This document shows, piece by piece, positions 8,034 to 64,000 of a DNA stretch of 64,000 nt. This DNA comes from Entophlyctis helioformis (lineage: Eukaryota > Chytridiomycota > Chytridiomycetes > Chytridiales > Chytriomycetaceae). Within the stretch, counting starts at the first letter, position 1. Each line of letters opens with the position of its first letter. The notes beneath the pieces are model-generated. The model saw only the letters and a list, made by a program, of their open reading frames with translations, had not been told where the DNA came from and did not search any database. The stretch is taken from NCBI GenBank assembly GCA_025526915.1, contig JAHLKH010000111.1:27200-91199 (forward strand). Direction: 5' to 3'. The translations under genes and the position numbers were made by a program.

Positions 8034-10387
8034 TCATTCGTAGTAGTCATCGTCGTCGTTGTGCTGCTCGTCGGCGCTGTCCACATGCGCACCGTCAAGC
8101 TCAACAAGCCGGCAGAACCCGCGACGGGTCTTGACGATGCGTAACGCATTCGCCTCACAGAACCCGTCGTTGCCGGCAAGGATCTGCCGGGCATAGTCGT
8201 ATCCATGCAGACACGCATTGCGCAGCAGCGCCTTGCGGTTGGCTGCATCCAGCACCTCGATGAGCATGTCTGCAATGTGTCGTTCATCTTCGGTACCTGC
8301 AGCAGCGTTGTCGTCGGCATCACCATCGCCGTCACCATCATCATCGCCGCCGCTGTCGAGAGAGTCGCGGCCAACAATCTTGTCCTTGCCAAGGATCTCA
8401 AACGTCTCGGCATCCAGATCATGAACAACCTTGAGGTGCTTGAGGAGCCAGGCGACAAGAGACCGACGGCCCGACCGCGCAGCCTCGCGCAGGGCAGTGG
8501 GGCTCCAGCTGTCGGGCCGATGCCTGTGCAGCCACTGCACGACGGCGAGATGGCCGTTGCGTGCAGCGCCGCTCATCGCGGCAGGCGTGCATCCCTCGGG
8601 CCGATGAGCGTGCAGCCACTCGACGACAGGAAGATGGCCGGCAGTCGCCGCGCGGTCCATGGCGTCGGTTGTGCATTTTCTCATGCCAAGTTCGGCAAGC
8701 GACTGCACGGCACCGAGTCGGCCGTGCGCAGCGGCCTCGTCCAGTAACTCGACCTGCAGCTGCCTGCTCCCGCGAAACTTGACGAGCCTGGTGGACATGA
8801 GCCATAGGAACACGTGGAGATGGCCGCCAGCCACGGCGCTCTGGATAGCCAGCCGCGTCCACCCTTCGCTGCGGTTGGCGTGCAGCCACTGGACAACATC
8901 CAGATGGCCGTGGCTCGCAGCGCCGTCAATGGCGTCTGTCGTGCATCCCTCGTCTCTGTTGGCGTGCAGCCACTGCACAATGTCCAAATGCCCGGCAGCC
9001 GCCGCATGGTCCATGGCATCAGTCGTGCATCCCTCGACGCGCGTGTCATGCAGCCACTGCACCACAGACAGATGGCCGCCCCTGGCTGCTCCGTCCATGG
9101 CGCGCGTCGTGCACCCCTCGCGCCGACGCTTGTGGAGCCACTGCACGACAGCGAGACGGCCAGCTGAGGCTGCCCAGTCCATGGCTCGCCGGGAGCAGCC
9201 AGCCGCCAGACACTTTGCGTGCAGGAACTGCAGGATTTGCAAATGCCCACGCCGCGCCGCCCAGTCCATCGCGAGCGGCGTCACGGCCGTGCACCCGGCG
9301 CAATGAGCGTCTCGAGCACGCCAGCATGCCCGAGCGCAGCAGCCGCGTCCATGACGGCCATGAGCGAGTCCGGTCGACCCGGCTCGACGCCATCTGCCGG
9401 AATCAGGCGTCGCCCAACATGGACAACGGTCCACTCCTCGACGCGGACAAGGTCGAGGCGGATGAGCCGCCTGAGCAGCCGCGGGAAGCCGTACAGAACG
9501 GCCAGCCGAGCCGCAGCGAGCGGGCGGACATGCAGCCACGCGTCGTCGATCCATCCATGCTGCAGCGCCACGAGCGTCAGACGCATGGGCTCGACGGCTG
9601 CCGGCGCGCGCGTCCAATCCCCGCGTCCAAACAGCCGGTCGTCCTCGAAGAACTGCGCGGCAGGCTTGGACACGGGAGCGAAGCGCCGCATTTTGATCGC
9701 GCCGCTGGGCATGCGCACGGGCCGGAAACAGTGGGCCATGTCCGTGTACTCGTTGAAGCGCGTGCACAGCCGCGCGTACATGTCCAGCGACCGCACGTGG
9801 CGCAGGGCGTCGCCGATGCGCAGGGACGCGTCTGGGAGGAGGTCGAGCGGGCCGGCCCAGTCCAGCTGCAGAGCGTCGCGCCAGATCTCGAGGGGATGGG
9901 GCGGCGGCGGCGGCGGCGTTGCGAGTGATGCGATCGCGGTGGGCGAGGCGGCGTGCAGCCACAGTGTGAGCGGGCCGGCGAGCTGCGCGATGCACAGGCA
10001 GACGCGCGGCGGCAGCGTGTCCCACCACGACATGCCCGGCGGCAGCGCGGCCAGCCTGGACGGCCCGATGTGCACCACGACGCGGCTTGCAAAGCAGTCG
10101 GCGTCGTCTTCGCTCGACTGCGACTGCGTCGATGAAGGCGAGTGCGAGCGGCTGCGCTTTGGCGTGTGCGACGGCGTGTGCCTAGGCGTGTGCTGCCGCT
10201 GTGGCTTCTGTACCGCCCGGCGCCACCTGCTGGACACCACCTCAAAGTCGCTGTCGCTGTCGTCGTCGTCGTCGTTGTCGTTGTGGCCGCCAACGGAATC
10301 GGCTGCGACGCTGCTGCTTGCGGGCACTGCCCGACTGGCGGGAGCGGCTCGAGCCAGATGCAGAAGCAGAGGCAGAGCCAGAGGCAT
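8034..10387 (-). CDS. ankyrin-repeat protein 1 with F-box-like N-domain; frame broken near 9295
   Basis: The ATG at 10387 starts an acidic, Ser/Arg-rich N-terminus. It leads into a domain shared with the three ankyrin genes at 41.8-46.8 kb: LPPRVCLCIAQLAGPLTLWL, later LDWAGPLDLLPDASLRI and MYARLCTRF. About ten ankyrin-type repeats of the pattern GHLxVVQWLHxxRxEGCTxxAMD follow, then an acidic Asp/Gly stretch and a non-repeat C-terminus ending at 8034. The frame carrying the N-domain stops at about 9281 while the repeat frame is open across it. One extra G in the G run at 9294-9296 would join them in mid-repeat, giving the usual GCT motif. This is a frameshifted gene or a base-calling error. 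Its partner is unknown; F-box plus ankyrin proteins are commonly substrate adaptors for SCF ubiquitin ligases (inference). Confidence 0.7.
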
Positions 10388-41788: not shown

Positions 41789-43153
41789 TCAAGCAAGGAG
41801 AGACAGAATGCGGTTGATGGCAGCCGTGTTGCCAGTAGTAGCGATCTGCTGGGCTATGGCGTTGCGTCTCTCTGGCGTCAGACTCTTGACCAGAACAGCG
41901 GCGATCTCGTCGGTCTTGGCATTGATGATGGCATCAGCAGTGAAGCCTTCAGTGCGGTTGGCCAGAAGCCACTGGATGACGTGAAGATGTCCTTTCTCAG
42001 CAGCCCAGTCCAACGCTCTTGTTGTGCATCCTTCTGTGCGGTTGGCGTGAAGCCACTGGACAATGTGAAGACGGCCAAAATGGGCAGCACCGTCCATCGC
42101 TTTTGTTGTGCATCCTTCGGTGCGGTTGGCCAGAAGCCACTGGACGACGTGCAGGTGACCCATAGCCGCAGCAAGGAATGCCGCCTCAGTCGTGCATCCT
42201 TCGGTGCGATTGGCATGGAGCCACTGGATGACATGCAGATGGCCAGACCGAGCCGCCCAGTCCATCGCTCTTGTTGTGCATCCTTCCGTGCGGTTGGTGT
42301 GAAGCCAGATGACCAGATCCAAGTTGCCTGATGCTGCAGCATCATCCATGGCGCGTGACGTGCAGCGAACCTTGGGAAGCGACAGCAGATACTGCACCAT
42401 CTCGAGTCCGCCGTATCTTGCAGCAAGATCGAGGACGGACTTTTGACTAGTAATGGCACACTCGTCATGTTGGTTGATCTTCTCGATCGTGACGAGCTTC
42501 TTGCCGAGGAGATACTTGAGAAAGTCGACGCAGTTGCCCTTGACAGCCATGATGCCGAGATCAACGAAATCCCTCAGCGGCACAGCATCCAGCCACATCT
42601 TCTGCATTGGGATGCATCGGATCAAGTCACCAGTGAATCGCTCGCACAGTCGCTGGTACATGCCGATCGACTTGACATGCGCAACGTCCTCGACTTCCAA
42701 GAAGACAGAAGGCAGCAGACCAAGATCGCCCTGCCAGTCCATCTTGAAGCCATCAACCCACAGCGCTCGCTTGGCTGCCTTGTCCATCGTGTCAGCATCG
42801 AGACGGCCGTGAAGGAAGCGAGTGAGCGGGCCAGCAAAGTCGACGATGATGTCCCGGACCTCTTGCGGACACAGCAGCCAGTAGTCGGACGCCTGCTGAG
42901 CTCGCTGAGCGGCGAGTCTGGCTTGCGGCGACTGCACAACGACGCCGGCTTCCTTGAGTGCCACTGACGGAACGGCTTGAACGAACGCAGCGACAATGGC
43001 TGCCAGCGAGTGGCCGGCAGTGACGAGGTCCTGCACGATGGCGGCGGCCTTGGCTGCGAGGCTCTCCTGCTGCTCGTGGCCACTCTCCTCGTTGATGCTC
43101 AGCGACTGGCTTGTGCGACGGCGCTTTGTGTGTGTGCGGGTCTCAGGCGGCAT
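41789..43153 (-). CDS. ankyrin-repeat protein 2 with F-box-like N-domain
   Basis: The ATG at 43153 (MPPETRTHTKRRRTSQSL) is preferred; the frame stays open upstream to about 43792, but that part looks non-coding. After a basic, Ser-rich start come LLCPQEVRDIIVDFAGPLTR, RALWVDGFKMDWQGDLGLLP and MYQRLCERF, the N-domain shared by all four ankyrin genes in the window. About seven repeats follow (for example HLHVIQWLHANRTEGCTTRA), with GCT-x-x-AMDxAA at each turn. The C-terminus ends INRILSLLA. It is intronless, about 454 residues. Probably an SCF-type substrate adaptor, inferred only from the F-box-like position plus ankyrin architecture. Confidence 0.75.
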   Translation of the reverse strand: MPPETRTHTKRRRTSQSLSINEESGHEQQESLAAKAAAIVQDLVTAGHSLAAIVAAFVQAVPSVALKEAGVVVQSPQARLAAQRAQQASDYWLLCPQEVRDIIVDFAGPLTRFLHGRLDADTMDKAAKRALWVDGFKMDWQGDLGLLPSVFLEVEDVAHVKSIGMYQRLCERFTGDLIRCIPMQKMWLDAVPLRDFVDLGIMAVKGNCVDFLKYLLGKKLVTIEKINQHDECAITSQKSVLDLAARYGGLEMVQYLLSLPKVRCTSRAMDDAAASGNLDLVIWLHTNRTEGCTTRAMDWAARSGHLHVIQWLHANRTEGCTTEAAFLAAAMGHLHVVQWLLANRTEGCTTKAMDGAAHFGRLHIVQWLHANRTEGCTTRALDWAAEKGHLHVIQWLLANRTEGFTADAIINAKTDEIAAVLVKSLTPERRNAIAQQIATTGNTAAINRILSLLA

Positions 43154-43870
43154 CTGTCCGAAAGTGTTTGTTGTTGTGGCGGCAACCACGACGCAACTGC
43201 ACAGATCCAAGTGGTGCGGCTGCTGGTCGCTGTGCTGCTCATGTGCTCGGCACTTGCCACGATCGCAGTGCCAGCGGCCGTGAGCATGCTGGCTGCTGGC
43301 GGTGGCCGCACGCATACGGCCAGTGGCACGGTCACCTCCAGCAGACCTCGGCTTCAGCCGCAATGGCAGCGAGGCAGCCGAGCAGCGTGCAGGCAATCCC
43401 AATGCAGCAGGCGGCAGACGCAGCACCATGACCAAGGCCGGATCGCTGATCGTGGCTGGCACGCAGCAACAAGCAGCAACCGCAAGCAGCAGCAGGACCA
43501 CTGACCATCCCAGAGAGCCGCGGCACCGACAGGTCCGTGGGATCGTCGCCCCCACACGGCGGTGCAGCACTCCATCTGGCATCCAAGTCCGTCGCGGGCA
43601 TCTCGCCGTCGGTGTCACAGCAGCCATCGCCGCCCAAGTGCGGTGTTCCATTGCAGCACACTGCACTCCCACTCTTGTCCGTCTGCATCCCTTGTTCGGC
43701 GTCGCCTTGCCTTGCCATGCAGCTGTCCAGTGGCGCGTCTGCCTTGCAACCATCGCGTCTGCACAAGACGCGCTCTGTCCCAGTCCACCCACATGTCACT
43801 GTGCATCAGCAGCCATAAGTTTGAACACAGCATCCGCATTCAAGAGTGGCATGCTTTATTCGCAGGCTGA
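43154..43870. other. intergenic region between ankyrin genes 2 and 3
   Basis: About 720 bases. It is open in several frames because of high GC, but I see no domain. It includes the 3' flank of ankyrin gene 3, with its AATAAA, and the promoter of gene 2. Confidence 0.4.
43855..43860 (-). terminator. polyadenylation signal of ankyrin gene 3
   Basis: AATAAA on the minus strand lies 10 bases after the stop codon. The same arrangement and surrounding sequence occur after ankyrin gene 4, so it was duplicated with the gene. Confidence 0.7.
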
Positions 43871-45067
43871 TCACGCCTGCTTCTCCGCAACTGCGCGCTC
43901 GAGACGCTCAACGAGCATGTGACCTCCACGTTGAGCCCTTATTGTCTGCAGCATCTCCATCGCACACGCAAGGGTCATGCTGTCCACCAGAACATCAACG
44001 ATCGCTTCACTCTTCGCATGCCGGAGTGCATAAAACGTGAACGGATATCCACACGAGAGCAAGAACTGCACGACTTGGAAGTGGCCGTTCGCTGCTGCAT
44101 CCTTGATAGCATCAGCCGTACACCCCTCGGTGCGGTTGGCATGCAGCCACCGTACAACGTCGAGATGACCCTTCTCCGCTGCTGCATCCATTGCCAATGC
44201 CGAGCATCCTTCCGTTCGATTCTCGTGGAGCCAGATTACCACTTGCAGATGGCCTCGAAATGCCGCATTATCCATCGCCCTTGTCGTGCATCCTTCTGTG
44301 CGGTTGGCATGCAGCCACTTGACGACATGCAGATGGCCATGCTCTGCCGCCGAATTCATAGCGTCATCCGAGCACGACGTGTTGCCTGCATCGTGGAGCA
44401 TCTGCACAACATCGAGACTGCCACTCGTTGCAGCCAGATCCATCGCCAAGCGTCCCCAGTAACTCACGAACCTGCCGAGATCAACGCCGTGATGCTCAGC
44501 AAGGTGCTTGAGGAGTCCTGCATGGCCGAAGGAGATCGCTATCCAGCCAAGAGCGATCGGATGCGAAAAGTCCAGAAGGTCGAACCAGCCGTTGCGCATC
44601 GGGATGTGATAGAGGCGACTCGCATCAAAGTTTTCCATCTCTGGGTCGATGTCGGCCTCATACTCGTTGTCATCAGGGTTGATGTCGTCACAAAGCGTTG
44701 GGTCTGGAAAGCGAGTGCACAGGCGGCCGTACATAGACCGAGAGACTGGCAGCGAGAGCATGTCGAGAACAGGACGCTTGCGTGAAATGGCCTTGCCAGC
44801 ATGGAGGTCGATGTCTGGCAGCAGAGCGAGGTCGCCTTGCCAGTCGATGCTGATGGCATCCGTCCACAGCGCTTCGACTGTCGCTTCGTCGAGGCTGTCC
44901 TTGTCGCCGAGCAGACCGTTGATGAAGAGCGTGAGGGGGCCAGCTGCCTTGAGTATCATGGCGTGCACCTCGGCTGGCTTGCTGTCCCAGTGGCTGCGTC
45001 CGTACGGCAGAGACCCGTTGTCGTCCAGCTCAAGCGAAGCGACTGTCACATCAGCGAGGTTGTCCAT
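43871..45067 (-). CDS. ankyrin-repeat protein 3 (tandem duplicate of gene 4)
   Basis: The ATG at 45067 opens MDNLADVTVASLELDDNGSL. The frame upstream is stopped by TGA within sequence that is otherwise duplicated before gene 4, which supports this start for both. The N-domain reads KPAEVHAMILKAAGPLTLFI, ALWTDAISIDWQGDLALLPD and RSMYGRLCTRF. About six ankyrin-type repeats follow (HLHVVKWLHANRTEGCTTRA and similar), then a helical C-terminus ending ERAVAEKQA. The protein has 398 residues with no intron. It is nearly identical to gene 4 over large parts of the N-domain (for example the whole segment around WTDAISIDWQGDLALLPD) but has fewer repeats. Confidence 0.8.
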   Translation of the reverse strand: MDNLADVTVASLELDDNGSLPYGRSHWDSKPAEVHAMILKAAGPLTLFINGLLGDKDSLDEATVEALWTDAISIDWQGDLALLPDIDLHAGKAISRKRPVLDMLSLPVSRSMYGRLCTRFPDPTLCDDINPDDNEYEADIDPEMENFDASRLYHIPMRNGWFDLLDFSHPIALGWIAISFGHAGLLKHLAEHHGVDLGRFVSYWGRLAMDLAATSGSLDVVQMLHDAGNTSCSDDAMNSAAEHGHLHVVKWLHANRTEGCTTRAMDNAAFRGHLQVVIWLHENRTEGCSALAMDAAAEKGHLDVVRWLHANRTEGCTADAIKDAAANGHFQVVQFLLSCGYPFTFYALRHAKSEAIVDVLVDSMTLACAMEMLQTIRAQRGGHMLVERLERAVAEKQA

Positions 45068-45396
45068 TGTCGTCGAGCAGCGTTTTGTGGTTGGCAGGCA
45101 AGCGTGTCATAGCCACAATGCCGCTTTGGACACGCAGCGCAGCATGGCTGGCACAGATGGCACAGATGACGAGGCAGGCAGTGTGGCCAGACATCGACTG
45201 CAGTGGCATGTGGCTGGATGGCTGATGTGATGCAATGCCAGATTGCGGTGTAAGTGCAGCAACACGACGACAAGGCTGCAACTGCATGCACTGATGGCGA
45301 TCCCTTGCTGTGCATCAGCAACTGTGTTGTCTGAACAAGAAAGACACGCAGTGTCGCATCTGCGTTCAAGAGTGGCACACTTTATTGGCTGGCCGA
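45068..45396. other. spacer between the duplicated ankyrin genes
   Basis: About 330 bases. The part next to gene 3 repeats the sequence found upstream of gene 4 (46844-46930), so the duplication includes the proximal promoter. The part next to gene 4 repeats the 3' flank of gene 3. No separate gene. Confidence 0.6.
45381..45386 (-). terminator. polyadenylation signal of ankyrin gene 4
   Basis: AATAAA on the minus strand lies 10 bases after the stop of ankyrin gene 4, in sequence homologous to the 3' flank of gene 3. Confidence 0.7.
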
Positions 45397-46843
45397 TCAC
45401 GCCTGCTTGGCTGCAACTGTGCGCTCGAGACGCTCGACGATTCCGACTAGTTTACGTTGAGCCCTGGCCCTTCGCAGAATCTCCTTTGCACGTGCAAGGT
45501 TCATGCTGTTCACCAGAACATCAACGATCGCATCATCCTTCGCATACCGGAGTGCATCAAATGTGAACTCATATCCGCACTCGAGCAAGAACTGCACGAC
45601 CTCGAGGTGGCCTTCTTTTGCTGCATCATCCATCGCCTTTGTCGTGCATCCTTCAGTCCTGTTGGCATGCAGCCACCGCACAACATCGAGATGACCATTT
45701 TGCGCTGCACGGTCCATCGCCTCCGTGGTGCATCCTTCCGTCCGGTTGACATGCAGCCACTGAACAACGTCGAGATGGCCGTTCGCAGCTGCACCATTCA
45801 TCGCCCATTTCGTACATCCTTCCGTCCTGTTGACATGCAGCCACTGAACAACTTCGAGATGACCGTGCTTCGCCGCGGGAATCCATCGCGTACCAGGAGC
45901 ATCCTTCTGTCCTGTTCTCGTGGAGCCACATGACCACATCGAGATGGCCCTTCTCTGCTGCATTGGAAATAGCAGATGCGCATCCTTCGGTGCGGTTCTC
46001 GTGGAGCCACTTGACCACAGAGAGTTGACCATTCTTCGCCGCCAAATCCATCGCATCGATCGTGCATCCTTCCGTCCGATTCTCGTTGAGCCAGATGACG
46101 ACCTCGAGATGGCCATACTCCGCAGCACGATCCATAGCTTCATCCGAGCACGACGTGTTGCCTGCATCGTGCAGCATCTGTACAACATCGAGATGGCCAC
46201 TCTCTGCAGCCATATCCATCGCCATCCATCTTTCGTAACTCTCGAACTTGTCGAGGGCAACGCCGTGATGCTCAACAAGGTGCTTGAGGAGTGCCGCGTG
46301 GCCGTAGTAGATCGCTATCCAGCCAAGAGCGATCGGATGCGAGAAATCGACGAGATCTAACCAGCCGTTGCGCATGGGGATGTGATGGAGGCGAGTCGAC
46401 TCGAAGCCAAGGACCTCAGGGTCGATGTCGACTAGGTACTGGTTGAGCTGTTCGTTTATGTCGACTTGAAGTGCTTGGTCTGGAAAGCGAGTGCACAGGC
46501 GGCCGTACATAGACCGAGAGACTGGCAGCGAGAGCATGTCGAGAGCAGGCCGCTCGTGCTGGTTGGCCTCGCCAGCATAGATGGTGACGTCTGGCAACAG
46601 AGCGAGGTCGCCTTGCCAGTCGATGCTGATGGCATCGGTCCACAGCGCTTCGACTGTCGCTTCGTCGAGGCTGTCCTTGTCGCCGAGCAGACCGTTGACA
46701 AAGAGCGTGAGAGGGCCGGCTGCCTTGAGGATCATGGCGTGCACCTCTGCCGGCTTGCCGTCCCAGTGGCTGCGTCCGTACGGCAGAGGCTCGTTGTCGT
46801 CCAGCTCAAGCGAAGCGACTGTCACATAAGCGAGGTTGTCCAT
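45397..46843 (-). CDS. ankyrin-repeat protein 4 (duplicate; one-base frame break)
   Basis: The ATG at 46843 gives MDNLAYVTVASLELDDNEPL, then the same N-domain as gene 3 and some nine to ten ankyrin-type repeats, several differing by one or two residues (VVQWLHVNRTEGC twice in a row). The C-terminus (DAIVDVLVNSMNLARAKEIL, ending ERTVAAKQA) is homologous to gene 3. The frame with the N-domain runs out of pattern at the GGG at 45877-45879. Removing one base joins it to the repeat frame in the middle of the AMDxAAKHGH motif. Either a recent frameshift in a duplicate or a base-calling error. Confidence 0.75.
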
Positions 46844-46987
46844 TGTCGTCGAGCAGCGTTTTGTGGTTGGCAGGCAAGCGTGCCATAGCCACAATGCTGC
46901 TTTGGACACGCAGCGCAGCATGGCTGACACTGCACGTCTGTAAAAGGGACCGGCTTCATTGAGATTGGACAACAGCAGACGAGGTTG

Positions 46988-53657: not shown

Positions 53658-55672
53658 CTATGGCTGCATGGCGTCATTCTGCCGAAATTGGCTCTCAGCA
53701 AACAGACAGTGCACCATCATCACACGAAGTGCAATGAATACCTGGACGGGTGCAATGCCAAACCCAGACGTGATGCCCTCGATCTCCAGCAGCTCAGACA
53801 GCGACGCAGACGGCCTGTTGTTTGACTCGATGCCGTGCATGAACACATTGAAGGCCATCTGGCTATCGTGCGGTCTTGCCCGACGATTCCTCCAGTGTGC
53901 TAAAGTCTTCCTGGATCTTTCCTTGACTCTACGCGACTCAGTATTGCTGATCCTTTCGTTTGCTGTCTCGATGGTTTCATCGATCGCGGCATCCACTACT
54001 TCCGTGTAGAGGTCAAGCAACTGCTGTGCGCGGTCCTCCAAGTCGTTTGGAAGGCGTCTCGACAAGTACACGACCAAGTCCCATGCAGCCTGAAATGAGA
54101 ACATGGGGTTTGCATAATCGCATCCACTCACGCTGGCAAACACAGCCAGATCGGATTCTTGCTGGAATCCCCCTGCCTCAAGTATCTTGTCCTGGCTGAT
54201 CAGATCCTTGCTCTTATCACCAAGGCGGAGTGTGTATTTGCAGCCTGGAGTGAACGGGATATCAGCGTCTCCAGATACCGCGATGACGTTGTCCTTGCTT
54301 GCCGCCCTCGCAATGGGCACGTCGGCCTCAAACTCGGCCTGCACCACACTTGCTCGCACTGCAACAGGTAGTCGACGCGCCGAGACGAGATCTGCGAGCG
54401 GCAAAGCACCTGGGCCAGCTCGGGCGGCGTGTGCGTGGATGAGCGAGATCGCCTCATCGAATGCACGCTTGGCGCGACCTTGGATCGCCTGGTCGCCATT
54501 GGTGGCGGGGTAGGGAATGCCTTGAGTATCCACCTGCAGAGGACCACGGCGTTCTCGAGACGTGAGCAGATCGAAGCCCTTGGCACACGCCTCGGCCTCG
54601 CTCGCGAGATCCTTGAGAATTCTGATCTGCTGTTGGATCTTGGAAGCAAGCTCAGGATAGAGCTTGCACACCATGCTCGCAACACGCTTGAGAAAGTCGT
54701 GTTTGGCTTCGACCAATAACCAAACAAGCAGGAGATAGATGAGGTGCTTGTGTGGAGGTGCGAGGAAAAAGCATTTGCGACGGACGGAGTCGATTTGTGC
54801 TGCTAGTTCGCTGACACGCTTCCTGACTGTGTGGGTTTGCTGGCCGTCAGGATATTGCGCACTTCAGATGAAAAGGATGCTGTTAGCGGTGAACTCTGGC
54901 TCGTGCCATGCACTGAAAGTACTGACAGCAACGCCTTATACTCATCAAAGAGCCCTTTCATCGGCTGATAAGCAGATATGGCCGTTCTCTGTTTTAAGCT
55001 GGTCTTGTTCATCTTGGCACCCGATGTTTCACCGTCTACAACAAGACAGACATCTTTGAATGTGGAGAGCGAGGCAAGCAGCTCTATAGCGATCTCCTTG
55101 ACCGGTTTGAACCATTCTCCTGGCCTGATGTTATAGCACTTCTTGTTGAGCATCTTGGGGTATGCGTTTCCGAGGAAGTCGACGGCCGCATGCCAGCTGT
55201 TAGCAGCGACGCCGCTGATGGGACCGTCATGCCATTCCATAGCTGCTGACAGCCCCGTCTTCCGAAGGAGAGTTGCCGCCCCTTTTGCTGACCAGGTCAT
55301 CGTGTTGGTTGAGCCAGAAGGTGCAGCGGCTTCGGCGACAGCAGACGCAGCTTGTACTGCTTCGGCAATGGCCTTGCAGTGACGGTTTGGAGCTGTTAGG
55401 CTGTTGGCACTCAAGCCAATGGCAGGACACTGGCAGGGCGCACCACTCACATCATCGAAAAGGCTGTCGGGAGACGCAGCAGCTTGTTGAGCAGCAGGCT
55501 CCTGGCGAGCAACAGTGCCCTTCCAGCCCTCAGCAGCCGCACCAGAAGCAGCCGCGTGTCGTTGCTCGAGCCTCCATCCCATAATGCAGGTTTCGAGATC
55601 AATGCAAACAAAGAGAATCGCACGACTCGGTCGAGCCACATGGCGCGTTGTTGCTGTGCTGGTATCGCGCAT
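53658..55672 (-). CDS. Rad2/XPG-family-like structure-specific nuclease
   Basis: FEN1/XPG/EXO1 nucleases cut flap or bubble DNA with two metals. The first exon (start taken at 55672, MRDTSTATTRHVARPSRAIL) has an N-terminal extension, then GAATLLRKTGLSAAMEWHDG, SGVAANSWHAAVDFL and LASLSTFKDVCLVVDGETSG. The last of these places an Asp as in the XPG N-domain. An intron lies at about 54920-54800 (exact ends unresolved). The second exon reads CFFLAPPHKHLIYLLLVWLL, VVQAEFEADVPIARAASKDN (E-x-E-A-D), VIAVSGDADIPFTPG (D-x-D) and FASVSGCDYA (G-C-D-Y), followed by a helical, basic C-terminus ending at 53658. The first family Asp (VAVDA) seems replaced by Ala-Asn. It is on the same strand as the Fanzor-like gene, 1.1 kb downstream of it. 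Confidence 0.6.
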
Positions 55673-55702
55673 TGTCTGCGCTTCGCAAGAGCTCTCTAGA
55701 TC

Positions 55703-55749
55703 GACCAATCACAGCGATTCCACCAGGATTGACCAATCACAGCGATTCC
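55703..55749 (-). promoter_or_regulatory. tandem CCAAT-box element upstream of the XPG-like gene
   Basis: Two perfect copies of GACCAATCACAGCGATTCC, starting at 55703 and 55731, lie 31-77 bases upstream of the putative ATG at 55672. CCAAT boxes bind the fungal HAP/NF-Y complex; the exact duplication of 19 bases suggests a functional or recently duplicated element. Confidence 0.6.
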
Positions 55750-56766
55750 GCCAAAGCGAGCTGGGCCACAATCTCGATCTGTTCCTCAACCAAGGACCAA
55801 CTCGAGCAGCGACGGGGCATCGTCAGCATGAACAGCAAGTGTTGGCTGCTGCAGCGGCTGCAGTCCACGTAGCGTCACAGCGACGCTGACCCGCTCGGCA
55901 CATCCAGTGGCAACGGTCTGCATTGCCGCATCCGCCAGATGCTTCCAGCAGCGTCGCAGTTCAACGACAGACGCTTGCTGCCAAGACACAGGCTGCTGGC
56001 TGGCGGGCTCTCGAGCTGGCTGGCTGGCTGTTCGGCTTCGAGCCGCTGTGTCCTGGCAGCAAGTGGCTGGCTCAAAACGACACGGCCTGGCTGACGGCAG
56101 ACGCCGAGCCACCAACGAGCGCCTTGCTGACTCGCTGTGTGCGAGTAACTGACCCTGCTCTGATGCGGCACAGACGGGCATCAGACTGGCCGACCAAGGG
56201 TGACCGGCCGACCAAAGCCAAGATACGCAGCACGCCTGCCACGATCAGACGCAGCAGCATGTTTGCCCTCCCTTGCAGCCACGCCACCACAACCACTCGA
56301 GACGATCAACAGCAGCGCCACTGTCTTTGGCATCTTGCACGACAGAGACCAAACAGGCGCATAATGGAGCAGGCACGATGCCGCAGATCCCAGCCAGCCA
56401 GCACATCCAGGCCACCAGCACCACTGCAACACGAAAACCAAGGCGCACCACTCGGCCGATTCGATCCGCTGCCAGACCACCATCCTTGGACTGCCTTGAC
56501 ATCCCACGGGCATCTCGGAATGGTTCAAAGACGAACAGCAGCGACACCGCAGCATATCATGACAACTGCCCCAACCACTCGAGCAAACAGCCGAAATCCA
56601 TCCAATGGAGCAATACTCGGCTGCGGGCGTGCAGATGCGCACCAACTGCGATCGCCAGTTGTTCTGAGAGACACACTGGATGCCGAGCAATTTTATGTGA
56701 CTAGCAGAAGAGAAATGGAATGAATCGCGGGGTGCACATCCGGCGGTCAGAGACAAACGCCACGCA
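55750..56766. other. 1-kb non-coding stretch downstream of the Fanzor-like gene
   Basis: No gene is supported here. Open frames on both strands are composition-driven. It contains CTGGCTGG-rich patches near 55990-56035. Because guide RNAs of TnpB and Fanzor elements come from the 3' flank of the nuclease gene, the part adjoining 56766 is where such an RNA or an element end would lie (inference). Confidence 0.4.
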
Positions 56767-59716
56767 TTACTTCTTGCCACGAGGGACAACAACCAGCGTC
56801 GCGTTTCTTCGCCAGCGTCCCTGAAACTGAACCCTTTCTACGCCAACACGGTTTCTCTGCTCCTGGCGGGGTGCACGTGCCTGCTGCTGGTCCATTGTCG
56901 GCTGCTGACTGTCGACACGCGCCATGATGTCATCCTGGCAAGTGTTGCGACGTTTCTGGCGGCTGTCTGATCCAGCCGTGCCTTCTTGAGGATCGGCGGC
57001 TTGTCGCTTAGTGGAGGCCCCAGCAGCATTCCTGGCTTTCTTGCTTGTGCGGGGATTGGCTCCTTCAGTGAACGCCTCTGGACGCAGCCCACACTCGAGA
57101 TAGCTGCGCAAGATCATTGCAATGCAATGTGCAGCGGCGAAATCGCGGTGGTAGTGAGCAGGTCCAAACACTTGCTCGGGCAGCTCATTGACCTTGCCAT
57201 CAGATGAAACGCGCAATTCAGGTGTTCTTGTATCATGCAGACCCGACCTGCATGGCAGCCAAGCCGCGAGAGATGGCAATCGTTAGATGCATGCAGTGCA
57301 AGACAAGGAGGATCAAAGGGCATCAGAAGTCGACTGCACATACTTGCAGATCTTGAAGCGTATGGCGCGGTGCGAGTCCTTATCCTCAGTATGCTGGCAA
57401 TCCTCGAGGGGCTCCAGACAGACTCCACAGCGCCGCGATGTGAACTGATCATTCACAATGAACTGCTGCTCATGGAATGTGTTCAGTCCTGTGACAGCAG
57501 ACATGATGGCAAGCCAAGCATGGCGAGACATATCCAGCTGCAACTTACATTCATGAATCCATTGCTGTTGCACTTGGAAGAGCATCTGAATGCCAGCTGA
57601 TTGGCAAGAGACTGGCTACCAGGCTTGTTCCTCAGCCAGCCAGCACCATCAAATCCAATGTATGCAGACACATCGTCTTGGGGGAGGCTGTGAGCTGCAA
57701 GCCGCTCCTTTGCATGTTGCACACCAGCACGGATCAGGTTCACAAACGACTGGCTGAATCGGTCCATCGCGGCAGTAGCATAAGACTTGGCAACAGACTT
57801 GGGCCTGGTGGCAAACTGTACACCGCATAACGTCAAATGTGTGTCGCTTGGATCAGCGCCAGCAATCATCATAGACACACGACCTACCTCGCTGCCAAAG
57901 TGCTTGTTCATCACATCGCCACACCTTGCCTTTTCAGCATCAGTCAAGCCACCAACAGACAGCTTTTCCAATGCCTCACGGACAGCGACATCTCCAGCAG
58001 TGGACTTGTTTCGGAACCTGGTCGCGATTTTGTGGTACAGGCAGAATGCAGCCTTCTTCCATCCGAGTTCCGAGGAGAAGACTTCGAGCGGCTCGGTCGA
58101 CACCAGTCCATCACTTGTCACGCGGTAAACAACAACGACGGCCTTGACAGCTAGTGGGATGTGGACGTTTGTGTCCACACCCACAACAACGACTGTGCAC
58201 GTGCGTCGCCGCGATGCAAAGTCGGTATTCTTGATATTCTTGATGAACATCTTGCCATTAAGGAGTGGCTGGATGCATGAATGCAGGATCAGAGAGTGGG
58301 CATTTGTGCAAAATGAAAGATCAGCCTGTCTGCTGTGCACAGTCAATGCCATTGCACTTACAGATGGATTGAGAATCGGCAGTACTGGATTGCCATCCTT
58401 GTCCTTTGACGGTAGAGGGCCATGGATCTTCAATGGACGTGCTCGGACAAACTTGACAGCAGTAATGTTTGTGCCATCTGTCCAGAAATTTCGACCAAGG
58501 ATGACACGGTCGTCCTTGCTTGCCTCTGCCGCCAGCTTGAACCGAGAGAGGCCAGTGAAGAGGGCCTTGATGACACAGCCAGGTTTGCGAGCAGGACATT
58601 CAACACCATCCTTCAATAGGAAGCGTTTCATGGGGTCTGTGAAGAATGTCACACCGGTTGCGAGCTCGTCAAGGCCTGTCGGAACCTTGACCCTCTTGTC
58701 AAAGCAGATGAGTGGCCATAGATGCCTCTCCTCGATGAGAACTGGAAGCCGAGAGTGTGACAGTCTGGAAGGGAGCTTCCAAGCAACACGGCTGTTTCTC
58801 TCACGCCACTCATTCACAGCACAGAATGCCTGTTCAAGATTGCATATCATCAACTGCAAAGCTCAGCAAGTCAGATGGACAACAGTTGAACTCACATGAA
58901 GTGGAGAAGCATTCTTATCCTGCAACGCAAGAAACTCCTTGAAGTCATCAGACAGCTCTGAGACTTTTGCAAGTGCCTGGGCTGCCTTGCACCAGATGCT
59001 GCCAGCAGGTATGTTAAGCACCTTGCAATATGCCTTGGCTGCTCCAGCACGTTTTTCAGCCTCTTTCTCTCGCTCTTCTTGGATATCCTCCCATGACTGC
59101 ACTTGAGATTTGACGACCACTGCCTTCTTGCTGACTTGCTTGGATTTGCTGCCTGGCTTGGTTTCAACAGCAGTTGTGGTTTCAACAGCAGTCTTGTCAT
59201 GAGAAAGAATGAAGCAAACAACAAACAAGAGAGTCAGTTCAGTCAGCATTGCCACCACTACCAGCAGGCATAATATACATATGCACACACATCAACTGGA
59301 GGAGGAACATAATCACGACCATTGTCCTTGTACAAACCAACAATCATCCTTTCTGCCAGTGGTGGAATGTCAACTTGCATGTAGTGCTGGTTGCAAGCAA
59401 ACAGCTGTTGTGTTGCCACTTCGAGATCCTGTCTGACAATGTTGCGGGTCTTGATTGCAAAGGTCTGGATAACAATCTTGTCTAGGCCAGCTGAATGCTG
59501 CCAATTCGCCACATGAATCTTGAGGTTTTCCTCAAGGACGTAGCCAAGGAGTGTCTGCAGCCTCACACCTCCCGGGTTAACTGGTGGCTGTGGAGCATTG
59601 ATCTTCCAGCCAGAAAACTTGTCGCCATGGAGGATCACAATGACCTTGTACAGGGCATCCTTTGCAGCCTCTGTGTATGACTTGCTTGTCTCATCTTCAT
59701 CAGATGCTTCAGGGGT
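56767..59716 (-). CDS. Fanzor-like (eukaryotic TnpB relative) RuvC nuclease
   Basis: Fanzors are RNA-guided DNA nucleases of eukaryotes related to TnpB. Inferred exons are 59291-59716, 58896-59192, 58362-58853, 57549-58268, 57344-57465 and 56767-57247, all with GT-AG ends (GTGTGT, GTGAGT, GTAAGT, GTAAGT, GTATGT donors). Numbering from the first codon seen (the Met exon is not found), about 845 residues. A helical N-terminal half includes LPVLIEERHLWPLICFDKRV and ILGRNFWTDGTNITAVKF. RuvC-I is VVVVGVDTNVHIPLAV (D437) and RuvC-II starts YIGFDGAGWLRNKPGSQSLA (D612). FIVNDQFTSRRCGVC follows, with Asp 651 where many Fanzors have Glu, plus the first zinc-ribbon CxxC (658, 661). The second half of the ribbon is KICKSGLH (C685, H690), not CxxC. 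RuvC-III is HYHRDFAAAHCIAMIL (D721). The basic tail (TKRQ, RQKRRN) could be a nuclear signal. Family assignment rests on motif order, not on a search. Confidence 0.72.
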
Positions 59717-59885
59717 CTGGAGGGCATGTTAAACAGAAGGTCAATGCCAGAGCATAACAGACATGTATGGGTGGAGAGTGGGTACAAGTCAGTCACATTA
59801 AACAAGGTGTGTGCACAGACAGCTGTGCAATCAAGACACATTCATGTAATATTGGATGACCGTGTAACGGATGCTCGGTCGCGGT

Positions 59886-59909
59886 CACGTGATCCACGTG
59901 ACCCACGTG
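59886..59909. promoter_or_regulatory. three CACGTG boxes in 9-bp phase
   Basis: CACGTG occurs at 59886, 59895 and 59904, exactly 9 bases apart, embedded in TCACGTGATCCACGTGACC and CACGTGACC repeats that also form a near-perfect palindrome. CACGTG is the core site of bHLH factors such as Cbf1. It lies between the Fanzor-like gene (minus) and the retrotransposon gag (plus) and could serve either. Confidence 0.55.
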
Positions 59910-59963
59910 ACCGGACAGACATCGCCCGGCCGCGTCCCCCGCTCTGGTTGCCCCCGTTCTTGC

Positions 59964-60087
59964 AGTCGTCTGCCCGCCCTTCTTCGCGTGCATACTCACT
60001 GCCCCTGCAACCAGGTCCGTGCTTATGTCTCAATGAAGTCGTCTGCCCGCCCTTCCTCGCGTGCATACTCACTGCCCCTGCAACCAG
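59964..60087. repeat. 51-bp direct repeat at the 5' side of the retrotransposon
   Basis: Two 51-base copies (59964-60014 and 60037-60087) differ at one base and are offset by 73 bases. Each ends CCCCTGCAACCAG. They lie in the 494-base stretch 59717-60210 upstream of gag, which also has a T run (60194-60202). The repeat may belong to an LTR or 5' leader. Confidence 0.85.
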
Positions 60088-60210
60088 CCGGCAAGTCTGC
60101 CTGGAGGCCCAGTGCTACAGCAAGAACCGCCCTCTCGACGCCGTCGGCCGCCGTTCCCCGCCGCCGTCGATCGATTTTTCCGTCGTTTTTCCGTTTTTTT
60201 TTTCCTTTGG

Positions 60211-62136
60211 ATGGCCGTCGAGCGCTCGCCCCAGCCCGCGGCTCGCTCGGCCGCCGCCCCCTTGGGCACTGACCAGGACCTCCTCGGCGAGGCCTCGTTC
60301 GATACGGCCCGCTCGTTCATCGACGCCACCCCCCCAAGGTCCCAGCACCGCCCCGACCCTGTGGGTACGTCGTCCGTCTTGATGGCCGACTCTGCTCTGG
60401 GCGCGTCTTTTGGCGCCTCACCAGCGCGCCGCCACTCCTCGGCCGATCTGTTGGGCCGCCACGACGCAGACGCTGGTCGGCGCCAAGAGGCGTTCCTCTC
60501 CAGCACGCCGGCCGTCCAGCCCGGCGCTGGGAGTGCCCCCAGGCGGCCCTTCACCATCACTGGAGAGCACATGTTCTACGAACTCGTGCGCCTCCACACG
60601 GGGGCGTCAGACACCAGCCGAGCACTCAAGGCGACCACATCATCTGCGGCCGCCGCCCACGCTGCCATCGACGATCTGCGGCTTCAGCTGCAGTCGGACC
60701 GCGACATGGCCGCCAGGCAGGCTGAGGCCTACTCCAGCGCCACCCAGCTCCACCATCAACGCCTGGTGGCACTCTTTGACTCTGTCGAGGCCAACTCAGA
60801 GGCCATACGGGGCCTGCAGAAGAGCGTCGCCAACACGTCGGAATCCGTGATTGCACTGGAGCAGGTCTTCTCGGATGCCGTCGCCAAGGCCACCAAAACG
60901 GCAAACGCTGCGTTGGCGCAGGCCTCAGCCACGGCGACCCTGCTTGCGGAGCATCCGGTCCAGGCGCTTGGGTCCTCGGTGGACTCGCGTCCGGCCCACG
61001 CGTCGGGATCCTCGGTGGATGCTCGCCTGCCAGCAGCCGTGGAAGCCCGTGCACCAAACTTGGCCAAGGTGTTCTCGGAATCGCTTGGCAGACAGGTGCC
61101 GTTCAACGGCCTTGTCATGGTCAAGGGCTCGCAGCTGACGGTCAACTGGAACGCCACTCGCGAGAGCCTCGAGCCGTTCGTCCTTGCCATTGAGATGGCC
61201 TACAAGAGCGCCTGCAAGGCGACCGGCGTGGATGCGATCCCCCTGAGCGACATTGGCGCAACCCTCCTGACGCTCCTCACAGGCGATGCCCGTGTATTCG
61301 CCACCGCCTGGTTCAAGTCGCTCAAGACAGACGATCCGCCCCCGACGCTCGCCCACTTCCTTGCGGACCTCGTGTCGCGCCACAGTGCCCCGGAACGAGT
61401 CCGAGGCCAGGCTCGCCAGAAGCTGGAGCGTGACTTTGCGCCCACTGAGTGCCATGGCCGTGTCCCGCAGGATTGGCTGCATGCAGCCGAGCGGCTGTTC
61501 GATGACGCCCAGCTTACGGAGGCGGAGAGGCTCACATTCCTCCGCACGCGCATCAAGGACAAGCCCGAGGCGTGGGATTCGCTCACGACCTACTCGGCCC
61601 TCCGCGAGGCGTTCATCAAGCGACACTCAGGCGCGGAGGAACACGAGCGTGACATTGCAATTGCCACTGCCCTCGCCAACGCTCACAAGGCCCAAGACGC
61701 CAAGTCGACGCCCAGCTCTGGCAAGACAGCCGCCGCGTCGCCGCGTTCTTGGAGCTCCTCATCGCCCAAGGCCACTCCTGCGCCCTCTGGCAACAACAGC
61801 GCATCTGAAACGCGTAAGGCCGCCTCGCCCGCTGCGACAGCCGACCATGCCAGCCGATCGCCTAGCCAGCGCCCGCCCCACTCTAAGGTCGGGCGCATCG
61901 CGGCAAAGGCCAAGGCACCCGGGTACGTTCGCTCGCCCCCTCTGGCTCCTCCTGCTCCTGCGGCTAAGCACGCTTCGGCGGCTAAGCCTGCGCCGCGCGT
62001 AAGCCCAATGCTGACACCGAACCTCCATCGGTCCCTGCCCGTGACGACGGCGCACCAGCAATGGCTCCGGCTCGCGGTCGCTCGAAACCGTCTCGTCGTT
62101 CTCAGACGACGGGACCCAGTACAGCGACGCAGATGA
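60211..62136 (+). CDS. retrotransposon Gag-like protein without zinc knuckle
   Basis: Gag packages the element's RNA in virus-like particles. The ATG at 60211 follows a T-rich leader. An N-terminal Ser/Pro-rich part gives way to a coiled-coil-like segment (about residues 110-250). The retrotransposon gag domain follows, with NATRESLEPFVLAIEMAYKS, TGDARVFATAWFKSL and AWDSLTTYSALREAFIKRHS. The C-terminus is Ser/Pro/Lys-rich and ends with Arg clusters at 62136. I see no CCHC zinc knuckle, usual in gypsy Gag; the basic tail may bind RNA instead. It overlaps pol by 76 bases in the -1 frame. Confidence 0.75.
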   Translation: MAVERSPQPAARSAAAPLGTDQDLLGEASFDTARSFIDATPPRSQHRPDPVGTSSVLMADSALGASFGASPARRHSSADLLGRHDADAGRRQEAFLSSTPAVQPGAGSAPRRPFTITGEHMFYELVRLHTGASDTSRALKATTSSAAAAHAAIDDLRLQLQSDRDMAARQAEAYSSATQLHHQRLVALFDSVEANSEAIRGLQKSVANTSESVIALEQVFSDAVAKATKTANAALAQASATATLLAEHPVQALGSSVDSRPAHASGSSVDARLPAAVEARAPNLAKVFSESLGRQVPFNGLVMVKGSQLTVNWNATRESLEPFVLAIEMAYKSACKATGVDAIPLSDIGATLLTLLTGDARVFATAWFKSLKTDDPPPTLAHFLADLVSRHSAPERVRGQARQKLERDFAPTECHGRVPQDWLHAAERLFDDAQLTEAERLTFLRTRIKDKPEAWDSLTTYSALREAFIKRHSGAEEHERDIAIATALANAHKAQDAKSTPSSGKTAAASPRSWSSSSPKATPAPSGNNSASETRKAASPAATADHASRSPSQRPPHSKVGRIAAKAKAPGYVRSPPLAPPAPAAKHASAAKPAPRVSPMLTPNLHRSLPVTTAHQQWLRLAVARNRLVVLRRRDPVQRRR

Positions 62137-64000
62137 AGAAGAGTAGCCCAGTTGTGGCTGATGCGAATAAAAGGTTGCCCTCTGTGGCCCCTGATCACCC
62201 TGTTTGTCCTGTGTTGCCGCCGTCGCGACTGAAGGAGGGGCACCTGGCTCCTGTGAAGCCCATCACAGAGAACCGGTGCACCTTCCCTGTCTTCTTAGAC
62301 AATCGCAGCGCCAGCGTCCTGGTGGACACTGGCAGCAGCGCGAATCTAGTGGCTCGCCGTTGGTTGGATGCCAACGGCCTGCTCGCCGCTGCCCGGCCGT
62401 TCACCCGGCAGGCGGTGACTCTCGAGTTTGCCAACGGCAACTTGCAGAGGCTAGATTCAGAGGTCTACCTCACGCTCGCTGACAGAACAGATGCTGTTGG
62501 CAGAGTGCGGTTCCTTGTCTATGACGGTGTGGATGATGTCATCCTGGGCATGCCGTGGCTGCGCACCACCGCGAAGGCGTCATTCAACTTCCGTCGCGGC
62601 GTTTTCCGCTTCTCAACCGAGTCGCGCCCCGATGTGCACCACATCTGGCAGCACGAAGACGCTCCGCCGTCTGCTGCACCCCACAACCGGCCGCACTCTG
62701 ACATCGTGGTTACCATGTCGGACATCCTCGCCCATCCTGACGAGTATGCGGAGCTGGTCTATGTGGATGACCTGCCTGAGGACCGTGAGGCAGCTGCTGA
62801 TGCGCGCCTTCGCGTCGCGGCTGCAAACGGCCTCACCCCGGACGAGCTGAAGGAGAAGTACCCCTACCTTCCAGTCTGCCCGGACGAGGAGACGCAGAAG
62901 GCATTCATCGAGTACTACGAGGTCTGCTGCCCGCCGCAAGGCCGTGCGCACGACTCGGAGTTCGAGATTGCGATCCCTTTCATTAAGGATGCGCAGCTGC
63001 CGCCGCGTCGTGGCCTCAAGAGACTGAACCAGGATGCATCCATAGCGCTCAAGAAGCAGCTAGACGAGTGGTACACCAAAGGTTACATCCGCCGCTCGTC
63101 ATCGCCTTTGGGCGCCGGCACGCTCTTTGTCCGCAAAAAGGATGGTTCGCTGCGGTTGGTCATCGACTACCGCGGCTTGAACAACATCTCGGTGAAGTTC
63201 CACAGTGCGATCCCGGAGATTGAGACCCTCCGTGATAACTTGGCAAACAAACCCTTCCGCTCGATGCTTGACATCCGCGAGGGCTTCCTTAACATTCGTG
63301 TTAAGGCGGAGGACCAGTGGAAAACTGCGTTCTCCACCCAGTTTGGTCACTTTGAGTTCACGGTCATGCCTTTTGGGCTGACCAATGCTCCGGCTGTGTT
63401 TACACAGGCCATCCAGTCGACGCTCAATGAGCTGCTGGGCACGTGCGTCTCGGTGTACATGGATGACATCTACATCTACAGCGCGACGTACAAGGAGCAT
63501 ATCAAACACCTACGCACTGTTCTCAAGCTGCTACTGGAGGCTCAATTGTACATTAAGCCGTCCAAGTGCATGATCCTGCAGCAGGACATTGAGTTCTGCG
63601 GTCACGTGCTTTCGCCCACTGGTTATTCCATTGCGCCAAAGCACTTGCAGGACATGGCAGCAGCGCCACACATCTCAAACACAACCACTCTGGCAACTTG
63701 GCTTGGCAAGCTTGTGTGGTTAAAGTCATTCATTGGTGGGCCGAACCCTGCAAAGGCGTACGCCACCATGTGTCTGCCACTTTACAAGCTACTAGCCAAG
63801 AATGCCAAGTGGGAGTGGGGGCCCTGCTCAAAAGCAGGCTGTGGAAGACCTGCGACAGGCAGTGCTGAAAGCGACCGAGCTGCGGTTCTTTGACCCGGCT
63901 CTGGAAACGCATGTCTACACTGATGCCAGCAACTACGTCATTGCCGGCTACCTGTCGCAGATCCACCCAGATGGCGAGAAGCTGGTGGCCTGCTGGTCAC
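62061..64000 (+). CDS. retrotransposon Pol: protease, reverse transcriptase, RNase H (partial, frame break)
   Basis: Pol lies in the -1 frame relative to Gag, with an ATG at 62061 inside the overlap, so either -1 frameshifting or re-initiation may be used. The aspartic protease has VLVDTGSSANLVARRW and a late VILGMPWL. The reverse transcriptase has FVRKKDGSLRLVIDYRGLN, MPFGLTNAPAVFTQA and the catalytic YMDDIYIYS. The frame stops at 63893, but the RNase H-type continuation (VYTDASNYVIAGYLSQ) runs in another frame to the window end. The break is at the G5 run at 63817-63821 and implies one extra base. Integrase must lie outside the window. Confidence 0.8.

Follow-up and report, generated by a model that had tools for sequence, protein, structure and literature searches.

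Spizellomyces punctatus is a chytrid, and its SpuFz1, which we take to be SPu-1-1p, is a Fanzor1 in a fungal host, the same setting as that of the gene described here. The catalytic residues of SpuFz1 are given as D383, E541, and D606 (PMC11423790), and SPu-1-1p is described as a single ORF, carried by an element that measures about 2.1 kb and has 33-bp TIRs (PMC3627910). In the account of Fanzor1 in PMC10711439, the TDG of the WED domain is characteristic of the group, and six residues separate the catalytic Glu from the first zinc Cys. The literature connects Fanzors by distant common ancestry to TnpB of IS200/IS605 and IS607, a link that would reach the present protein through the Fanzors. 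Among the titles and abstract openings searched, we found no report of this gene or of a Fanzor with Asp in place of the Glu.

We analyzed a 64,000-nucleotide stretch of Entophlyctis helioformis DNA (the window; bases 27200-91199 of contig C111, one of 482 contigs in a 29.6-Mb genome). On its minus strand, exons with GT-AG borders between 56767 and 59716 join in frame into a Fanzor1-like protein of about 821 aa, a length that holds when an optional intron at 57816-57887 is removed and one exon starts at 57465. The original prediction had six exons joining in frame, and an independent reconstruction again ran from 59716 to 56767 and had six exons. In the direction of the gene, the exons lie at 59291-59716 (N-terminal region, from the exon reconstruction), 58896-59192, 58362-58853 (with TDG at 58473-58481), 57888-58268 (with RuvC-I GVDTNV at 58164-58181, its Asp at 58173-58175), 57549-57815 (with GFDGAGWLRN at 57627-57656), 57344-57465 (with VNDQFTSRRCGVC, VNDQFTS at 57436-57456, and Cys 1-3 of the zinc knuckle), and 56767-57247 (with HRDFAAAHCI, the RuvC-III Asp at 57142-57144, RPEAFT, and the stop codon), all on the minus strand; all four motifs quoted in that prediction are among them. 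The acceptor preceding VNDQFTS is a CAGCAG tandem, and its exon runs from 57465 or 57462. Without the optional intron, a single exon covers 57549-58268, and the gene body has six or seven exons. The final model contains six introns of 42-98 nt, all GT-AG, and its exon joins are splice-consistent open frames. In contrast to this multi-exon gene, SPu-1-1p is a single ORF according to its published description.

The gene body overlaps the public gene model P0001 (hypothetical protein BC831DRAFT_513972), which shares much of its sequence with our reconstruction. P0001 omits parts of exons, uses another intron before VNDQFTS, and ends ahead of RuvC-III, leaving the annotated protein without that motif. 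It adds the in-frame 72-nt intron at 57816-57887, which was exon sequence in the first six-exon model, and a weak 6-nt first exon, ATGAAT, at 59840-59845 on the minus strand, placed from the MN start of P0001. No true first exon was found upstream of the exon at 59291-59716, and it could not be placed because an LTR retrotransposon begins at 59863. This element lies head-to-head just upstream of the gene on the plus strand (59863-64000), starts 17 bp beyond the presumed start codon of P0001, and extends to the contig end. Among the other LTR matches listed (40 of 311 candidates scored), 37 of 38 are 97-100% identical and one is 87% identical; the insertion is apparently recent. By eye, the element holds gag-, protease-, and RT-like frames, and GACCG is a candidate 5-bp target duplication. 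A genome search for the other side of the insertion (the LTR end plus the presumed target duplication) gave 0 matches.

We then compared the motifs of the protein with those of Fanzors. They follow the order TDG, RuvC-I Asp, TSxxCxxC, and RuvC-III RD, with TDG at residues 366-368, 71 residues N-terminal of the RuvC-I Asp437, and with Asp697 as the RuvC-III Asp. The Fanzor/TnpB spacing D-X(125,275)-[TS][TS]xx is kept, with 192 residues between Asp437 and Thr630, as is X(5,50)-RD, with 34 residues from Cys661 to the R of the RD that contains Asp697. The protein contains the published TnpB/Fanzor motif once this is relaxed to three Cys, as do 15 of 20,000 shuffles of it; together with TDG, the motif occurred in none of 20,000 shuffles. 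TDG was found in this protein and in all 120 Fanzor matches listed, an agreement that is not a blind test, since the motif was spotted in alignments before the literature confirmed it.

The protein departs from Fanzors in three places. RuvC-I reads DTN instead of the Fanzor DPG, a feature to which we give little weight because RuvC-I reads DWG in the canonical Fanzors of the same genome; DPG is therefore not universal in Fanzors. Asp627 (57448-57450, in the exon with VNDQFTSRRCGVC) stands in place of the alternative Glu, with six residues between it and the first zinc Cys. The zinc Cys are Cys634, Cys637, and Cys661 only, the fourth Cys of a C4 zinc finger being absent; His666 may be a fourth ligand. 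Because two defining features, the Glu and the C4 zinc finger, are lacking, we do not class the protein as a proven Fanzor and call it Fanzor1-derived.

Against Pfam, the whole protein gave nothing significant (best E 0.13, an unrelated family), and its C-terminal piece reached 13 bits against PF07282 (TNB; E 0.12), below the cut-off of 26.3. It had no match in NCBIfam, TnpB included, whereas a canonical copy matched TnpB there at E 5.5e-5; the best E against PDB sequences was 1.7, to a ribosomal protein. Among the 7,992 candidates scored in a protein search, one matched, P0001, which is the same gene. The original prediction named the lack of a hit to Fanzor/TnpB profiles as grounds for refutation; the curated libraries (Pfam and NCBIfam) gave no significant hit, but a dedicated combined profile did. 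This profile, built from 13 environmental and 11 canonical sequences of the same genome after single profiles had given weak results, scored the protein at 4.3 bits in hmmsearch; the best of 100 shuffles reached 2.2, and each of 67 decoys, cut to matching length from real ORFs, scored -3.4 or less. In hhalign, the protein reached 34.9 and the best of 60 shuffles 28.1, with a best probability for the protein of just 13%; the alignment spans TSxxCxxC through HRD to RP, and RuvC-I forms a second weak alignment in the correct order. The canonical core profile alone gave 21.4 in hhalign (best of 30 shuffles, 19.0), a profile of canonical copies with the N-terminal extension gave 21.5, below the best of 60 shuffles (25.1), and environmental Fanzors alone gave P 0.18 (the hhalign P, without a shuffle control). 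As a positive control, canonical Fanzors aligned to environmental ones by hhalign at P 2.8e-8, and the canonical profile gave an environmental member 11.8 bits; P0001 and environmental Fanzors are 19-21% identical. AlphaFold2 yielded unusable models, both for P0001 alone (pLDDT 32.6) and with alignment A2 (18 rows, the canonical rows partly misaligned; pLDDT 37.6).

The genome itself is rich in canonical Fanzors. At least 150 PF07282 matches exceed the cut-off (150 of the 150 scored, out of 205 candidates, in 29.6 Mb), and the canonical loci read (from the L001-L008 and L034-L045 set) are intron-bearing Fanzor genes. This number is high but has a precedent in Cyanidioschyzon merolae, for which about 150 copies of a single Fanzor element have been recorded (PMC3627910). 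In all 14 canonical loci read, both the alternative Glu and the C4 zinc finger are retained, and RuvC-I reads DWG in each of the 10 with the RuvC-I exon recovered. A conserved 3' end was present in 12 of the 14, and a 204-base canonical 3' end matched at least 40 places (40 of 40 scored, of 208 candidates, the query's own place included). This 3' end is sharp, reading ..ATCGGGCC in most elements, and taking a tandem repeat that they share as the 5' end would give the elements a length of 7-9 kb. Aligned, the 12 conserved 3' ends show long blocks without variation and a mean column identity of 79%. They could be guide RNA, and a folded one is plausible; none of 49 predicted pairs has changed on both sides, and a folded guide RNA is therefore not supported by covariation. 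No transposase was recognized in the six ORFs of one canonical copy, and a PDB sequence search with a canonical copy gave 4 matches, none of them a Fanzor.

Canonical Fanzors (such as L038 and L042; public models P0002-P0006) have the motif order and TDG in common with the gene in the window, as well as two or three introns of equal phase at similar positions; they differ from it in their number, the alternative Glu, the C4 finger, and the conserved 3' end. We considered whether the gene is one of these abundant copies and rejected this, as its RuvC-I/II exon had no match in the genome other than itself. Of the canonical phase-0 introns, the first precedes the RuvC-I Asp by about 33 residues, the second the RuvC-II-strand Asp by about 60, and the third the first zinc Cys by 12. 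Public models support individual joins: the first and second in P0002, the second in P0003, and the third in P0004, with P0003 reading across the third. Introns w3, w4, and w5 of the gene in the window lie 1, 5, and 0 residues from these positions, all in phase 0. Mapping by the nearest motif offset (nearest anchor) gave P of about 5e-4, a value to be read with the facts that this mapping was picked after the linear one, that one intron comes from the public model, and that acceptor 57465 was chosen of two. With linear interpolation, only one intron agreed at a limit of 3 residues (P 0.13), and two agreed at limits of 5 to 10 residues (P 0.014-0.051, with 0.014 at 5 residues). Two or three of the four introns in the motif region are thus near introns of the genome's ordinary Fanzors, which we regard as supporting evidence for Fanzor ancestry, not proof. 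The original prediction had also read the many introns as a sign of long residence and possible domestication. Long residence is plausible, but we dropped the step to domestication because the multi-copy canonical Fanzor genes here carry introns too.

One other copy of the gene was found in the genome, a pseudogene on contig C16 (L022 5063-6637). It is 90% identical over a stretch that starts shortly ahead of the third zinc Cys and reaches about 370 nt beyond the stop codon, and 73% identical around the exon at 58896-59192, where there are no indels. RuvC-I and II are absent from it, and a one-base shift lies at RuvC-III. No second copy of the RuvC-I/II exon and no second intact copy of the gene were found in the genome. 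dN/dS between the two copies in four blocks is 0.61 (the exon at 58896-59192), 0.42, 0.41, and 0.44, on few sites, and raw differences by codon position in that exon are 30, 23, and 28 of 99, with little third-position excess. The range of 0.41-0.61 suggests past coding constraint, in a family with formerly several members. The C16 copy also shows two levels of divergence, 73% identity in the 5' exon and 90% in the 3' half; these suggest that it is a mosaic of older family members.

We looked for a guide RNA beside the gene. The 3' flank (56395-56766, minus strand) is 91% identical to the C16 copy, and similarity between the two ends near 56395-56433. Its predicted RNA structure is not unusual (z -0.52), and the canonical 3'-end model R1 had no match within the window; no guide RNA was recognized at the gene from either. 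Rfam gave 0 matches in the window and 0 in four loci, and a scan for bacterial-type promoters and terminators gave no clear excess over shuffles.

Other features of the window were recorded alongside. At 55639-55754, about 116 bp contain 27-bp tandem repeats (ATTGG, the inverted CCAAT, by eye) and match the presumed 5' end at 88-91% identity in five of the six canonical loci compared (L040-L044, not L045); despite this repeat, there was no Fanzor among the PF07282 matches scored on contig C111 (150 of 205 candidates scored). Directly behind the repeat, at 53661-55708 on the minus strand, is a two-ORF gene, which occurs once more on contig C140 with 72% identity at the DNA level. Its FEN1/XPG-like appearance was judged by eye only; neither ORF has Pfam support, and the C-terminal ORF has no PDB support. 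On the same strand, several ORFs at about 8037-10181 and 41792-46987 share, by eye, an ankyrin-like repeat unit (..ANRTEGCTTRAMDWAA..GHLHVIQWLH..).

Shared ancestry with Fanzor1 is the best reading of these data, and the Fanzor ancestry in a fungal host put forward by the original prediction is supported by TDG, motif order, the combined-profile score, and intron positions. We consider it probable that the gene belongs to the Fanzor1 lineage, within which it has diverged strongly, and that it was the coding part of a transposable element once present in low copy number; one other copy, on C16 and broken, was found. The ancestor of the gene would presumably have been an omega-RNA-guided RuvC nuclease serving to protect or propagate the transposon that carried it. 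The present protein is readable across about 2.5 kb and has probably kept its fold, which we infer to be that of RuvC; the Asp437/Asp627/Asp697 active site, the three-Cys knuckle, and the LTR element on the promoter side would make full nuclease activity doubtful, with cleavage lost or weakened. If the motif match were due to chance, the protein would be an orphan or belong to another mobile element. The weak single profiles and the low identity of P0001 to environmental Fanzors are in keeping with this; TDG together with the RuvC/zinc pattern was absent from every shuffle, the combined profile exceeded its decoy and shuffle controls, and introns lie near those of canonical Fanzors, and we hold an origin outside the Fanzors to be very improbable.

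The further proposal that the gene could encode an uncharacterised RNA-guided nuclease is unproven in view of the change from Glu to Asp, the three-Cys finger, the PF07282 score of the C-terminal piece (13 bits where 26.3 is the cut-off), and a guide RNA search without result. An active Fanzor1 variant, in which Asp627 binds metal, Cys634, Cys637, Cys661, and His666 form a Cys3-His knuckle, and the protein cleaves with its own guide RNA, is in our judgment unlikely. It would fit the retained Asp of RuvC-I and RuvC-III, the conservative nature of the Asp change, the open frames, and a His five residues after Cys661 that the C16 copy keeps, but neither a guide RNA (from the 3' flank or the canonical 3'-end model) nor a second intact copy in the genome was found, and an LTR element sits at the 5' side. 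TldR proteins are nuclease-dead TnpB repressors of bacteria, and by analogy a Fanzor with altered cleavage might have been domesticated as a host RNA-guided DNA binder. One readable copy, the Glu-to-Asp change, and past coding constraint would agree with such a role; that constraint, however, was gauged against a pseudogene only and from a small number of sites, the 7,992 candidates scored included no orthologue from another species, and the LTR insertion on the upstream side is apparently recent, so that we give domestication very little credence. A Fanzor1-lineage protein that has survived as a single host gene with an Asp-Asp-Asp site and a Cys3-His knuckle, acting as an RNA-guided binder or nicking variant, is a long shot. 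Overall, the gene is probably a spliced low-copy relic of the Fanzor1 lineage that was once under coding constraint, and its putative activity and domestication are unproven.

The gene indicates how far a Fanzor1 may drift while remaining readable, here below the detection limit of Pfam and NCBIfam. Fanzor counts can overlook such genes when they rely on standard profiles or on public gene models; P0001, the public model of this one, lacks RuvC-III. It also makes a natural Glu-to-Asp, three-Cys Fanzor1 variant available for testing. If expressed, it would permit a direct test of whether a eukaryotic Fanzor can become a non-cutting RNA-guided binder, and a host genome rich in canonical Fanzors with a conserved 3' end would be a good setting for that test.
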